A program made the position numbers and the translations under genes. Below are positions 19,435 to 38,702 of a stretch of 64,000 nt of DNA, one piece after another; position 1 is the stretch's first letter; the number at the start of each line of letters is the position of its first letter. Under the pieces are notes generated by a model. The model ran no database searches, was not told the origin of the DNA, and saw only the letters and a list, made by a program, of their open reading frames with translations. Source of the DNA: Nitrososphaeraceae archaeon (GTDB lineage: Archaea; Thermoproteota; Nitrososphaeria; Nitrososphaerales; Nitrososphaeraceae); the NCBI GenBank assembly GCA_031316115.1, contig JALDRC010000006.1, positions 124,001 through 188,000 of the forward strand. The letters are read 5' to 3'.

Positions 19435-19992
19435 TTGACTAAAATTTTGCTCTATACCATAATAGTTTTGTATTCAATTGTGTATTTATTATTCATAATT
19501 TCAATTAACCAAGATATAACTGCACAGGAGGTTCCTAAATCCGCTCAAATTCCAAAGCCCCAGATTTCCGTCGAAATAATAGGAACTCCAAATGATGACA
19601 AAATCAAAGGCGGAAATGGCGATGATGAAATTGATGGAAAAGAAGGAGATGATACGTTAGATGGAGGAAGAGGAGATGATGAATTAGATGGAGATGAGGG
19701 AAATGACTTACTTAAGGGAAAGAGAGGAGATGATGAATTAGATGGAGATGAGGGAAATGACTATCTAAAAGGATACCAGGGAAACGATGTATTATCAGGT
19801 GGTGAAGGAAATGATACTCTGGACGGAGGTAGCGGAGTAGATGAACTAGAAGGAGGCCCTGGGGCTGATCTGTTTATATGCGATGCTGAAGATATATTAG
19901 TAGACTTTAATCCTCAGGAAAATGACACATTATCTGAATCATGTAAAGCTGCCAGATTGTCTTCTATCAATGATACTTCTATTTCCGGATAG
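19435..19992 (+). CDS. Secreted RTX-type calcium-binding repeat protein (185 aa)
   Basis: TTG start; an N-terminal hydrophobic segment (LLYTIIVLYSIVYLLFIISI) is a signal or anchor. Residues about 50-145 hold around nine nonapeptide repeats of the GGxGxDxLxG type (GGNGDDEIDG, GGEGNDTLDG, GGSGVDELEG) that build a Ca2+-binding parallel beta roll. The C-terminus (ADLFICDAEDILVDFNPQEN) resembles the end of the second RTX protein at 37992 (DEFHCGRDFDVILDYNPFEG), each with two cysteines. Two repeat blocks around 19670 and 19730 are near-identical in DNA, pointing to recent internal duplication. A surface or matrix role is inferred; there is no type I exporter nearby. Confidence 0.85.
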   Translation: MTKILLYTIIVLYSIVYLLFIISINQDITAQEVPKSAQIPKPQISVEIIGTPNDDKIKGGNGDDEIDGKEGDDTLDGGRGDDELDGDEGNDLLKGKRGDDELDGDEGNDYLKGYQGNDVLSGGEGNDTLDGGSGVDELEGGPGADLFICDAEDILVDFNPQENDTLSESCKAARLSSINDTSISG

Positions 19993-33110: not shown

Positions 33111-33833
33111 TCAATCCAAATTTAAAATTCGTTTCACCAGATTTGGATATTTTTCTGGTTGTTGATAAACTTGATATAACTTGTTGTAAAGATCTCTAGT
33201 GTTGAATTTTTGCCCAAACAACTCACAGGCTTTTTTGTAATCAAATTCATTCATAATCCAATTTATTTTCGTTGGTATTTTGTACTCATTATGAGGATTA
33301 AGAAAATTCAGAAATAAATCTTTGTTTTCCTTGTATTCATGTAATTCTTTTTTCGTGACTTTGTATACATTATACAATCTATTTATTTCTTCTTCCAGTT
33401 TTTGTCGCTCCCCTAATTTATCCTCCATCAAATAAAAAAGATCTTCGATTTTTATCCCGATACTTTTTTCATAAGTCAAAAGTGATGATAGACGATGAAA
33501 GAAATTTTCGAGATCGAGATCAAATCTAAAACTTTCTGTATTCATATGGTCTAACATTTGGATCACAAATTCACATTTAATATTATACCTTTTCAGCCAT
33601 AGCAGGAAATGAATAGCTTCGAAAATTTTAGATAAAGATAGACCATTATTTTTTATAGTTTGCGATAATAATCGTAACTCTTCAAATTCTTTTCTTTCCG
33701 ATTTTAAAGATTCAAGAACATTCGAGATACTTCCTAGTGAAATTCCTGACTCCCTAGAAATTTCCCTGTGAGAAAATCCATTGAGATAAGACGTGATTAT
33801 TTCTAGTTTTAATTGAGGAGGTATCGGACGCAT
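33111..33833 (-). CDS. HTH DNA-binding protein with coiled coil
   Basis: Residues 5-45 are a homeodomain-like HTH of the resolvase/transposase type (PPQLKLEIITSYLNGFSHRE followed by ISRESGISLGSISNVLESL). The middle is helical and leucine/lysine-rich, with a probable coiled coil at about 135-180 (ERQKLEEEINRLYNVYKVTK). The C-terminus (FDYKKACELFGQKFNTRDLY) is unfamiliar. There are no catalytic transposase residues. The promoter side carries ten 11-bp tandem repeats (33964-34073), about 130 bases before the ATG, which makes autoregulation or a structural DNA-binding role plausible. Confidence 0.7.
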   Translation of the reverse strand: MRPIPPQLKLEIITSYLNGFSHREISRESGISLGSISNVLESLKSERKEFEELRLLSQTIKNNGLSLSKIFEAIHFLLWLKRYNIKCEFVIQMLDHMNTESFRFDLDLENFFHRLSSLLTYEKSIGIKIEDLFYLMEDKLGERQKLEEEINRLYNVYKVTKKELHEYKENKDLFLNFLNPHNEYKIPTKINWIMNEFDYKKACELFGQKFNTRDLYNKLYQVYQQPEKYPNLVKRILNLD

Positions 33834-33963
33834 AGTGGCTGTATAGAAAAATTATTTTTAAATGATCTCATGATTTTCTTAGCAAGATATATTATTATTT
33901 TAAAAATATATTTTACTTAATATTGCGAAAATTTATCAGGTTTTGAAAAGTATAGGGATTGGA

Positions 33964-34073
33964 TTTGAACAGTATTTGAACAGTATTTGAACAGTATTTG
34001 AACAGTATTTGAACAGTATTTGAACAGTATTTGAACAGTATTTGAACAGTATTTGAACAGTATTTGAACAGTA
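33964..34073. repeat. Ten perfect 11-bp tandem repeats (iteron-like)
   Basis: The unit TTTGAACAGTA occurs ten times head to tail without a mismatch, 110 bases in total. One unit is close to one DNA helical turn, so every copy presents the same face. The array lies between the 3' end of the radical SAM gene and the start of the HTH/coiled-coil gene, both on the minus strand. Confidence 0.97.
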
Positions 34074-34211
34074 TTAAGTTAAATATTCATCTCCTGATTT
34101 TGAAAAAAAAGAAAAATAATCTCTACAATGTTATATTTTGATTTTCATACCTTGTTCATCTGTATTTTCTTGCCTTAAAAGAGAGATATCTAATTCTTAT
34201 TAATTATCTTA

Positions 34212-35585
34212 TTATGGAAAGCACATTTTTTCATATGATAATGGTTTAAAGTTAAGATTCAAGTCATTCGCATATCTGTATGCCGTTTTTAATTCATTTT
34301 CGGTAGGGGACCTTGAAATTTCCTTATAACTTTCTTTAAAGTGAGGTGACAAAGGGTCACATAGATTGTCTGGATGATATTGATCCATGATATTAAGCTG
34401 AATGTCTGGCATATTTTTTGCAATCCAATCTAGGATTGGTTTTGTACAACACTCTAAATGGTTAGGCATTATTAGATGACGGACTATGAAATCTTCTCCC
34501 CATTCATGTATATGTTTTAGGTTGGTAGTTACAGTTTCCCAGTACCAGGGAGTTCGAGAAAGTTCCAAGGCACATTTGCCAGGTCCGAATTTCAAGTCTG
34601 GTAGCCAAGCGTCCATAATGGTACGTAGAATATTAGTTGTCTCAGTACTCATAAAGAAGTTTGAATTCCAAATTTGAGGGCTATTGAACATTGAATTTTT
34701 ATAAAATGCATTTGCTGTGTTTTGCGAAAATGAATCGTTGAAATATTTATCAGACTTTATGGATTCAATATAATTAATGTTCTTCTTAATGTTAGTGCTA
34801 TTTATCCAGGTTATTTCAAATGAGTCAAGGATGTTTATTGCCTGTGTAATAGTATGAAGATGGATGGTTGGATCCCCTCCAACCCAGTTGATATTATGGC
34901 ACCCTTCCATTCTAAGTTGCCAAACCATAAGCGCTAAATTATATGGGGTAATGGGTATCCCATTTTCCTTGTCTGTGCTTATATCACCATTTTGACAAAA
35001 TGAACATCTCATATTACAGCTTGTAAAGAAAATTGTACCTGATCCATTAGTTCCCCTGAAAATAATTTCTTCGCCGCGGTGATGAAAATAACTGCCTACT
35101 CTGGATGTTGATTCTAGCTGACAAGTACCCACTTTTTTCTTCTTTAATCTAGAATTAGAAATTTTTTTTTCAAGGTTTTCTTTCTGATCGAGTGATCTAT
35201 CTATCCTACAATTCCAGCGGCAAAAGTTGCAGTGTGTTAGCATTCTTTTAACGAGCTCAACATTCAAATCTAAAAGGGATGTTTTTCTTTGGTGGATTAT
35301 TTCAGGTTTGAGATCAGTGTTACCGGATTTTATCAATTTCCATTTTTCTAAGAAATCTTCCGTTAGGTTTGTTAGCTCTTCCCAAAGATCTTGTTCATTT
35401 ACATTAGTTAAGTTAGGAAATTTACAAGGTATTGATCTACAAATTAGGTATTTAGCAGGCATATGGTTTAAGGATACCGCTAAATACCAAGGCAGGCTGT
35501 TTCCTCTGTTCTCTGTTAGCAGTTTCCATATGTACAACGATTCAAACTTTCTAAAATTATTGTTATTCTGAAATGGAGATATCAT
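34212..35585 (-). CDS. Radical SAM protein of the PflX type (COG1313)
   Basis: A 457-residue iron-sulfur enzyme. An N-terminal cysteine set (THCNFCRWNCRIDR, then VGTCQLES) comes first. Then RGEEIIFRGTNGSGTIFFTS leads into the radical SAM cluster motif CNMRCSFC (Cx3Cx2C) and QNGDIST, and then INWVGGDPTIHLHTI. The order H.GEE...GSGTIFF..CN..C.xCQN matches COG1313/PflX proteins, related to pyruvate formate-lyase activating enzyme. The later PDLKFGPGKCALELS and NHLECCTKPILDWI parts belong to the same family. Length is longer than usual because of a Ser/Asn-rich insert at about 265-305. Target unknown. Confidence 0.85.
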   Translation of the reverse strand: MISPFQNNNNFRKFESLYIWKLLTENRGNSLPWYLAVSLNHMPAKYLICRSIPCKFPNLTNVNEQDLWEELTNLTEDFLEKWKLIKSGNTDLKPEIIHQRKTSLLDLNVELVKRMLTHCNFCRWNCRIDRSLDQKENLEKKISNSRLKKKKVGTCQLESTSRVGSYFHHRGEEIIFRGTNGSGTIFFTSCNMRCSFCQNGDISTDKENGIPITPYNLALMVWQLRMEGCHNINWVGGDPTIHLHTITQAINILDSFEITWINSTNIKKNINYIESIKSDKYFNDSFSQNTANAFYKNSMFNSPQIWNSNFFMSTETTNILRTIMDAWLPDLKFGPGKCALELSRTPWYWETVTTNLKHIHEWGEDFIVRHLIMPNHLECCTKPILDWIAKNMPDIQLNIMDQYHPDNLCDPLSPHFKESYKEISRSPTENELKTAYRYANDLNLNFKPLSYEKMCFP

Positions 35586-36100: not shown

Positions 36101-37411
36101 TTAATCTTGATCTTCGTCTTCTTCATCTGTGGCTTCATTTACTGTAATAGATACAGTAGCTTCATTAGAGTCAGTATCGCCGTCATTTGCGATAAATTTG
36201 AAAGAGTCTTTACCAGAAAAATCATCATCAGGAGTATAAGTAACTGTATTGGTGGATGGATCAATAGTACCCAATTTACCATCGGACGGGTCATCTACTA
36301 TTGTAAATGCTAGTTTATCTCCATCTGCATCATTTGCATTTAATTTTATATCTATCTGTTGATTTTGTGATGTAGTAACAGAAACATCTTGTGCTGTAGG
36401 TTGTACATTAGGTGCCTCCTGAGCTTCTACTTCTTCATCGGGGGCTTCTTCAGTCTGTATATCGTCAGACGGTTGTTCTTCTCCTACAATAGGCTCCTCT
36501 GTTATGGTAGTTTCATTAACGGTAGGAACCAATGGTTGTTCTTCTCCTACAATAGGCTCCTCTGTTATGGTAGTTTCATTAACGGTAGGAACCAATGGTT
36601 GTTCTTCTCCTACAATAGGCTCCTCTGTTATGGTAGTTTCATTAACGGTAGGAACAGATGACTCCATTATATCTTTAGTTTGATTGATAAAATCAAGAAC
36701 TTGTGTATCAGGAGTTTCAGCTGCTGAAATTTCATCGTCTTGTTCTACTTCAAAATCGTCTTCAGTTGCATTTAATAGTGCTTGAAGGTCTTCGGTTGCA
36801 TTTACCGTCGCAATTGTTTGGTTTTCAGATTCGGGAGCTAATTCTTGTGCTTGTAATATTAGTTCAAGATCTTGTAATATTTGTTCAGGATCTTTATTCT
36901 TAAATTTAATGTTTGATTCAAAATCAAAATCAGATACATCTTCTTCATCTTTTATAATTGTCCAGTTTTTTACGATTTCTTCAACTACATTTGAAATCGG
37001 ATCACCGGCCGATCGTTTTGTGGCCAATAAATTAGATCGGTTTTGCTCAAAATCGAAATCATCACTTAAAAAATCATTAATTTCGTCTTGTGTCAATAAT
37101 GGAAGTGGATCTTTGTCCAATGAGTCGTCTTCTCCTTGCCCATCATCATCAAATTCAAATCCACCAATAGAAAGAGATCCTAATCGTTCTGACGTTGATG
37201 GTGGTACAAAGGGAGCTGCATTACCAGCAAAGGATCTATCACTTTGAGCCACAACAGATGAATATGTTAAATCAGGTACAATGAGTAGGAAAATAGTTAG
37301 AAGTAATACATTCAAAAGAAAAATTTTTGATCTCACTTTTTTGTTAAAAAATAAACTTACTTCAATATAAACAATTCCTACCTTCTCCATAACAACAAAC
37401 CAGTGAATCAA
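36101..37411 (-). CDS. Secreted acidic protein with VNETTITEEP repeats and a cadherin/Ig-like domain
   Basis: A hydrophobic signal segment (IFLLNVLLLTIFLLIVPDLT) follows about 28 N-terminal residues; MEKVG at residue 8 may be the true start. The long middle (residues 60-340) is highly acidic and disordered and includes three tandem copies of a 21-residue unit with VPTVNETTITEEPIVGEEQP. The C-terminal 85 residues form a tandem-type cadherin/Ig domain (IDIKLNANDADGDKLAFTIV, VTYTPDDDFSGKDSFKFIAN), which normally binds Ca2+ at DADGD. The tail is poly-acidic. It is probably a cell-surface adhesin or spacer protein. Confidence 0.8.
   Translation of the reverse strand: MIHWFVVMEKVGIVYIEVSLFFNKKVRSKIFLLNVLLLTIFLLIVPDLTYSSVVAQSDRSFAGNAAPFVPPSTSERLGSLSIGGFEFDDDGQGEDDSLDKDPLPLLTQDEINDFLSDDFDFEQNRSNLLATKRSAGDPISNVVEEIVKNWTIIKDEEDVSDFDFESNIKFKNKDPEQILQDLELILQAQELAPESENQTIATVNATEDLQALLNATEDDFEVEQDDEISAAETPDTQVLDFINQTKDIMESSVPTVNETTITEEPIVGEEQPLVPTVNETTITEEPIVGEEQPLVPTVNETTITEEPIVGEEQPSDDIQTEEAPDEEVEAQEAPNVQPTAQDVSVTTSQNQQIDIKLNANDADGDKLAFTIVDDPSDGKLGTIDPSTNTVTYTPDDDFSGKDSFKFIANDGDTDSNEATVSITVNEATDEEDEDQD
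36471..36655. repeat. Three tandem 63-bp coding repeats
   Basis: Units start at 36471, 36534 and 36597. The first two are 63 bases, the third 59 bases before it diverges, and they look identical over nearly their full length. They encode 21-residue repeats in the secreted acidic protein. The perfect DNA identity suggests recent expansion. Confidence 0.93.
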
Positions 37412-37991: not shown

Positions 37992-38702
37992 TTAAAAGAC
38001 TTCACAGTTGCTTGATTTTGTATCGCCTTCAAATGGATTATAATCCAAAATCACATCAAAGTCTCTGCCACAATGGAATTCATCCTTCCCAAATCCGCCT
38101 ATAAATACATCCTTTCCGCTTTTCCCCCATAAAACATCATTTCCAGAGCCACCAATTAAGAGATCACGACCAGAGCCTCCATCTAACCAATCATTTCCAG
38201 AATTTCCTTCAATTCTATCATCTCCTTTTTCTCCATAAATGGTATCATGTCCTCTATTTCCTTGAATAATATCATCACCGCTATAGCCAAGAATTTTATC
38301 ATTTCCAGAGTTTCCTTGAATTAGATCATCTCCTGTATTGCCATCAATGTAATCATTGCCAGCATTACCTTCTATCCTATCGCTTCCAGAATTACCAAAA
38401 ATCTTATCATTTCCGTTATGGCCTTCAATTCTATCTTTTCCTTGCCCGCCATCAATATAATCTGAAGAGCCTTTTGCTTTTATTCGATCGTTGCCCTCAG
38501 CTCCAAGTATTATATCTTTAAGATTTGAACCTCCCAATTTATCCCTCTCATCGGTTCCAATTATCACGTAAGCGTAATTTTGCGCATCTAGTATAGTTTC
38601 ATCTGCAAACACCGAATCAAAATCATTATAATTGTATACAATTAGCATCGAGGTTAGAGAAATAATGCTAATCCATAAAAATAATCCTAGATTAACCTTC
38701 AT
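37992..38702 (-). CDS. Secreted RTX-type calcium-binding repeat protein (236 aa)
   Basis: A signal peptide (FLWISIISLTSMLIVYNYND) is followed at about residue 50 by some fifteen GGxGxDxIxG-type nonapeptides (GNSGNDKILG, GNTGDDLIQG, GGSGNDVLWG) that form a Ca2+-bound beta roll. The C-terminal FHCGRDFDVILDYNPFEGDT with two cysteines resembles the end of the RTX protein at 19435. The ATG at 38702 directly precedes the signal. Many repeats start with GN rather than GG, so calcium affinity may vary. No dedicated exporter is nearby; Sec export is expected. Confidence 0.87.
   Translation of the reverse strand: MKVNLGLFLWISIISLTSMLIVYNYNDFDSVFADETILDAQNYAYVIIGTDERDKLGGSNLKDIILGAEGNDRIKAKGSSDYIDGGQGKDRIEGHNGNDKIFGNSGSDRIEGNAGNDYIDGNTGDDLIQGNSGNDKILGYSGDDIIQGNRGHDTIYGEKGDDRIEGNSGNDWLDGGSGRDLLIGGSGNDVLWGKSGKDVFIGGFGKDEFHCGRDFDVILDYNPFEGDTKSSNCEVF

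Follow-up and report, generated by a model that had tools for sequence, protein, structure and literature searches.

Direct repeats beside the gene of their own binding protein are known from several plasmid systems. In parC of plasmid R1, 11-bp direct repeats around a promoter are bound cooperatively by the autoregulator ParR, a ribbon-helix-helix protein with the actin-like partner ParM. In the conjugative plasmid R388, the stbDRs lie around the promoter of the operon stbABC as two sets of five repeats at an 11-bp pitch (9 bp + 2 bp); StbA, the DNA-binding protein of this system, has a function in plasmid stability and does not depend on its NTPase partner for its action (PMC3098194). KfrA of the IncU plasmid RA3, found on IncP plasmids as well, is a monocistronically encoded, fast-diverging protein that consists of an N-terminal HTH followed by a long alpha-helical oligomerising tail (PMC7783346). 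Its operator OK, located at its own promoter on this bacterial plasmid, is built of iterated 9-nt repeats, five of them around the -35 and -10 elements and partly in opposite orientation, and repression depends on the number and the orientation of the repeats (PMC7783346).

Here, we describe an array of direct repeats next to an HTH gene of an archaeon. The window, that is, the whole stretch of 64,000 nucleotides that was analysed (G000:C17:124001-188000), comes from a genome of 3.16 Mb. The named relatives found belong to the Nitrososphaeraceae/Nitrososphaerales, which places the genome among these soil-type ammonia-oxidising archaea (AOA). Like KfrA, the protein appears to have an HTH followed by a helical/coiled-coil tail, as modelled for its relative L104, the model of the window protein itself being of low confidence beyond the HTH. 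Like KfrA-OK, the locus has an iterated direct-repeat candidate operator at its own promoter, known here from sequence alone. Unlike KfrA, the system is archaeal, has many paralogues and an 11-bp pitch, and its boxes are upstream of a TATA-like element; KfrA_N was not among the Pfam matches up to E = 1. The 11-bp pitch of direct repeats is shared with StbA/stbDRs, but no sequence relation was seen and no stbB-like partner lies beside the HTH gene. Unlike ParR/parC, the locus has neither a ribbon-helix-helix protein nor a ParM partner. Judged by its anatomy, the system resembles KfrA-OK and StbA-stbDRs but is a member of neither, because no homology was detected, no plasmid context was seen and a partner gene is missing.

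Results

The array and its surroundings

The features of the locus are the following.
33111..33833, minus strand: HTH plus coiled-coil protein of 240 aa, an ORF of an unnamed family and the proposed array binder
33857..33862, minus strand: putative core promoter, TTTAAA resembling a TATA box at -29 relative to the start codon (basis: pattern only)
33941..33947, minus strand: degenerate unit TTCAAAA (forward strand TTTTGAA) in 11-bp phase (basis: sequence and phase scan)
33963..34075, minus strand: perfect 11-bp array of 10.3 units (basis: TRF; core and pitch recur at congeneric homologues)
34212..35585, minus strand: radical SAM protein, the upstream neighbour, which runs towards the array and is outside the system

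The array lies between the 3′ end of the radical SAM gene and the HTH gene's start. TRF gave a period of 11 and 10.3 copies of ATTTGAACAGT with 100% matches and a score of 226, and lag-11 matches reached 66/66 (z = 15.3 against a Markov-shuffled null). In the register ATTTGAACAGT, ten full units occupy 33963-34072 and are followed by 3 bases. The ten perfect units placed at 33964-34073 by the initial annotation are this array read one register further on and were confirmed by TRF; the distance of about 130 bases to the HTH gene agrees with the start codon at 33833 on the minus strand. Read along the HTH gene's coding strand, the unit is ACTGTTCAAAT, with the core (G)TTCAAAT. The degenerate unit at 33941-33947 is on the gene-proximal side, exactly 22 bp past the last perfect core, and since it is still in phase, the perfect part is probably younger than the array as a whole. 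Further towards the gene follows the TTTAAA, a putative core promoter that would give a leaderless or short-leader transcript. The idea that all units are on one helical face has to be corrected, because 11 bp exceed one turn: at 10.5 bp per turn each unit rotates by ~17 degrees and ten units wind through ~150 degrees, so that a single face does not strictly carry them all.

In its exact sequence the unit is private to this species: two tandem units had no match elsewhere in 84,980 genomes, in IMG/VR or in 60 relatives. The search for the unit elsewhere in the own genome, proposed earlier, returned one other match with 3 mismatches and no exact second copy. The recent expansion that had been read from the perfect identity is therefore supported, for the exact unit only.

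The radical SAM neighbour was rejected as a partner, because its orthologues in relatives have no adjoining array and HTH gene. The window has other repeats as well. A perfect 63-bp tandem repeat of 2.9 copies at 36471-36655, encoding in-frame 21-aa repeats of recent expansion, lies within the gene of a protein that is predicted to be secreted and has an Ig/cadherin-like domain. At 37992-38702, an RTX-type calcium-binding nonapeptide repeat protein is encoded (Pfam HemolysinCabind, 10 stretches), and the 27-bp-period repeat at 19621-19763 is similar to it.

The protein and its family

The 33111 protein had only sub-threshold HTH matches in Pfam, NCBIfam and PHROGs, and no family of these collections names the HTH-coiled-coil homologues. 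In PADLOC, similarity was limited to weak HTH matches with CRISPR regulators, and membership in a defence system was rejected. The AF2 model has HTH helices at 6-17, 22-29 and 33-46 with a pLDDT of 78-89; residues 91-200 have a pLDDT of 34-50 except for one block, and only the HTH is modelled with confidence. In the AF2 model of the relative L104 (pLDDT 82), a three-helix HTH (7-47) is followed by helices up to residue 126 and by a long helical hairpin (130-202). Because the C-terminal model of the 33111 protein is poor, we infer its coiled-coil contact from the model of L104. Foldseek found no structural relative below E = 0.001 in PDB or BFVD, the weak matches being mostly generic HTH proteins. 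Neither the family nor its arrays are described in the literature searched, which covered few subscription journals.

Profile searches revealed up to 14 family matches per genome in the Nitrososphaeraceae; a further family of this order, whose genomes measure 1.4-1.6 Mb, has a few. A quick ML tree of 56 members has two groups (support 96). The window protein falls in clade 1, where it forms one clade with the C19 paralogue of its own genome and the proteins of G002 and G001 (support 98). It matches the A1 family profile and has phased ATTTGAC/ATTTGAA boxes upstream.

Arrays at homologous genes

Absence of repeats beside homologues is what the initial annotation had named as evidence against its reading; the homologues carry phased arrays of a TTCAAAT-type core. 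The nearest ones, the paralogue G000:C19:140377, G002:C297 and G001:C120, are 28-31% identical to the 33111 protein, and all three are preceded by degenerate 11-bp-period arrays (lag-11 z = 6.6, 4.4 and 7.4, respectively, against the Markov null). The core TTCAAAT and its orientation are as in the window and the linkers are variable; in gene orientation the arrays read CTTTCAAATAC CTTTCAAATCA ... TTTTCAAATAC CTTTCAAATAG CTTTCAAATGG and similar.

Arrays with an 11-bp period are present in 23 of 30 scorable members of clade 1 and absent or weak in seven; clade 2 is without that geometry. Outside the own genus, the clade-1 core is GTCA(N)AT on the coding strand at an exact 11-bp pitch. Runs of at least three GTC at pitch 11 occur in 24 of 31 non-congeneric clade-1 members versus 0.33% of shuffles and usually end 50-110 bp before the start codon. 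GTCA was found in clade 1 at 161 sites spread over 30 regions; of the 121 tabulated spacings between neighbours, 112 (93%) are multiples of 11. The non-homogenised arrays have the consensus GTCANATNNNN. Their first three unit positions were used for selecting the units, whereas A4 (64/76), A6 (57/76) and T7 (53/76) were not and are conserved nevertheless; the linker positions 8, 9 and 11 barely rise above background. Conserved core positions next to such linkers require selection on core and pitch and would not result from slippage alone.

In clade 2 the word is inverted and its geometry differs. TGAC occurs 3.47 times per member versus 0.31 in shuffled sequence (85-90 bp upstream of the start region, n = 32), often within ATTTGAC, the reverse complement of GTCAAAT, and at least three TGAC boxes are found in 25/32 members versus 0/217 control genes. 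Neighbouring boxes are 12 bp (36 times) or 9 bp (29 times) apart, and the two distances together make 21 bp, or two helical turns. Two loci of the order's smaller-genome family have TTGAAC, the core of the window unit, every 20-21 bp before a family homologue, eight times in a row at L274:1208-1351 and five times at L275:1312-1393. In G048 (L024), GTTCA boxes are 12 and 23 bp apart. With one word family in three geometries of nearly whole turns at one protein family, binding of the word by the family's proteins would be the simplest account.

The arrays are specific to family genes. In 324 kb of the own genome only two period-11 arrays were found, both before its two family members, and none was found in 400 kb from three relatives, DNA that was chosen regardless of the family. 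None of 187 other genes of the own genome has such an array upstream, and a whole-genome search for a TTCAAAT triple at pitch 11 with up to 2 mismatches retrieved only those two family genes. Non-family matches near the relatives' loci are not an independent control, as these loci were chosen around family genes.

Turnover of the arrays

Perfect arrays with unrelated linkers are found in other genomes: GTCAAACCCTG x8 (G006), GTCAAGTTACG (G017), GTCAAATAGCC (G065), GTCATTCTGTC (G069) and GTCAATCCATC (G070). Such perfect arrays arose several times, and their turnover is fast. A syntenic slot of Nitrosocosmicus-like genomes (L119, L145, L118, L124, L126, L130, L134) holds a hypervariable HTH/array pair. 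The genes on either side, one of them iron-dependent alcohol dehydrogenase-like and the other an ORF with no Pfam match, are 62-96% identical, the HTH proteins only 31-58%, and from array to array the unit, the copy number or both change. The occupants do not form a single clade (AU p = 1.3e-5) and, therefore, different family members apparently replaced each other at the slot.

A 12-bp-pitch array of GTCATTTCAACC, the sole such pitch seen at the slot, lies beside a frameshifted family gene in L243 (G081:C8); G081 is a draft genome and the frameshift may be an error. In three Nitrosocosmicus-like genomes, an operon for an Mrp/NuoM-like antiporter has orphan GTCAAATAGC(C/G) arrays at its 3′ end, without an HTH gene beside them, with ~18 copies at L205:2856-3036, ~4 at L204:2923-2960 and ~8 at L206:2702-2783. 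Their unit equals that in the array of the G065 family gene. G009 has approximately nine diverged, mostly decaying copies of an array together with the 5′ part of a family gene (L122, L132, L210-L212, L218, L220-L222).

Discussion

The array is probably, with a chance of roughly three in four, a helically phased, cooperative, autogenous operator of the adjacent HTH gene. HTH monomers or dimers would each read one core, which is TTCAAAT here and GTCAAAT/ATTTGAC in relatives. The fixed 11-bp pitch would stack the proteins at intervals of roughly one turn, bringing their helical/coiled-coil tails within reach of each other, and ten proteins on the array would follow a gentle superhelix. This cooperative nucleoprotein array, just upstream of the HTH gene's promoter, would set the expression of that gene. 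From the sequence comparisons we infer the 33111 protein as the binder, cooperative binding and the regulation of its own gene. Simple promoter occlusion is disfavoured, since the boxes are upstream of the TATA-like element. Function would constrain core and pitch only; the 4-bp linkers would be free of constraint, and the array could therefore be homogenised periodically by slippage or unequal crossing-over, most recently in this species. The core is common to paralogues, and a different paralogue could therefore be the binder of the window array. Against an autogenous operator speak the seven clade-1 members with absent or weak arrays and, in some relatives, the orphan arrays without an adjacent family gene, which indicate that an array can occur or survive at a distance from the gene.

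The exchange at the syntenic slot invites a more dynamic interpretation, in which the HTH/array pairs of AOA are fast-evolving, exchangeable self-recognition cassettes with protein and array changing together, so that each species has its own pair at the slot. We consider this rather unlikely; if true, the pairs would be less like plain autoregulation than like an arms race of the centromere/binding-protein or drive type.

The initial annotation offered two likenesses, a cooperative operator and an iteron or centromere with its binding protein as on plasmids. The former has gained strong comparative support from the phased same-core arrays at homologues, but the latter has not: at the homologues examined there is no conserved NTPase or replication partner, no relative was found in PLSDB, and there are several paralogues per genome. 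An iteron origin is not favoured by the adjacent protein either, which has no Rep domain above cut-off and only HTH-type similarity. A plasmid partition module of the ParR/parC, StbA/stbDR or TubR/tubC type requires a partner NTPase or a conserved partition operon, and neither was found here; neighbours are unconserved between loci except at two syntenic slots, and the one slot examined for partners has metabolic or unassigned genes. For a centromere-like or nucleoid-anchoring site in a wider sense, at which the protein positions or organises DNA and autoregulation is secondary, one could invoke the anatomy of repeats and DNA-binding/helical protein, which matches StbA-stbDRs (PMC3098194) and KfrA-OK (PMC7783346), and the orphan arrays such as the ~18 copies at the antiporter operon end in G017. 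Besides the missing partner, however, each of the many paralogues in a genome has its own array near its own promoter, and the sister clade keeps few boxes only, at the promoter. Anchoring as the main function is thus improbable.

The non-monophyletic slot occupants with their different units, as well as the dispersed decaying copies in G009, would also be expected from a mobile or selfish cassette, in which HTH gene and array would move or be exchanged together, the array serving mainly as a substrate for recombination or transposition. This is quite improbable: the protein has no transposase or integrase domain at family cut-offs, terminal repeats or target duplications were not demonstrated, no relatives were found in IMG/VR or PLSDB, and protein binding explains the conservation of pitch and core. 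A viral or plasmid origin was rejected on the same database searches.

A neutral minisatellite that is upstream of the gene by chance has in its favour that slippage typically yields perfect units and a turnover of copy number and that the unit is private to the species, but it is already contradicted by the arrays kept beside homologues, which retain core and pitch despite divergence, and by the restriction of period-11 arrays to family genes in the 324 kb, and is very unlikely. Similarly hard to credit is an RNA-level element, a structured or attenuating transcript leader, for although the array is upstream of the gene and transcription from a distal promoter is conceivable, its structure is no better than that of shuffles (z = +0.95), no Rfam family matches, a TATA-like element lies between array and start, and the spacing follows the DNA helix.

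A cooperative, autogenous operator would be of interest since transcription control in AOA is little characterised. Here, an unannotated family with up to 14 copies per genome is linked to a predicted DNA word, and this predicted word comes in three geometries that are phased with the helix, at 11 bp, 9+12 bp and 20-21 bp. The family may also serve as a natural series for studying the joint change of a DNA-binding protein and the repeated operator of its own gene.
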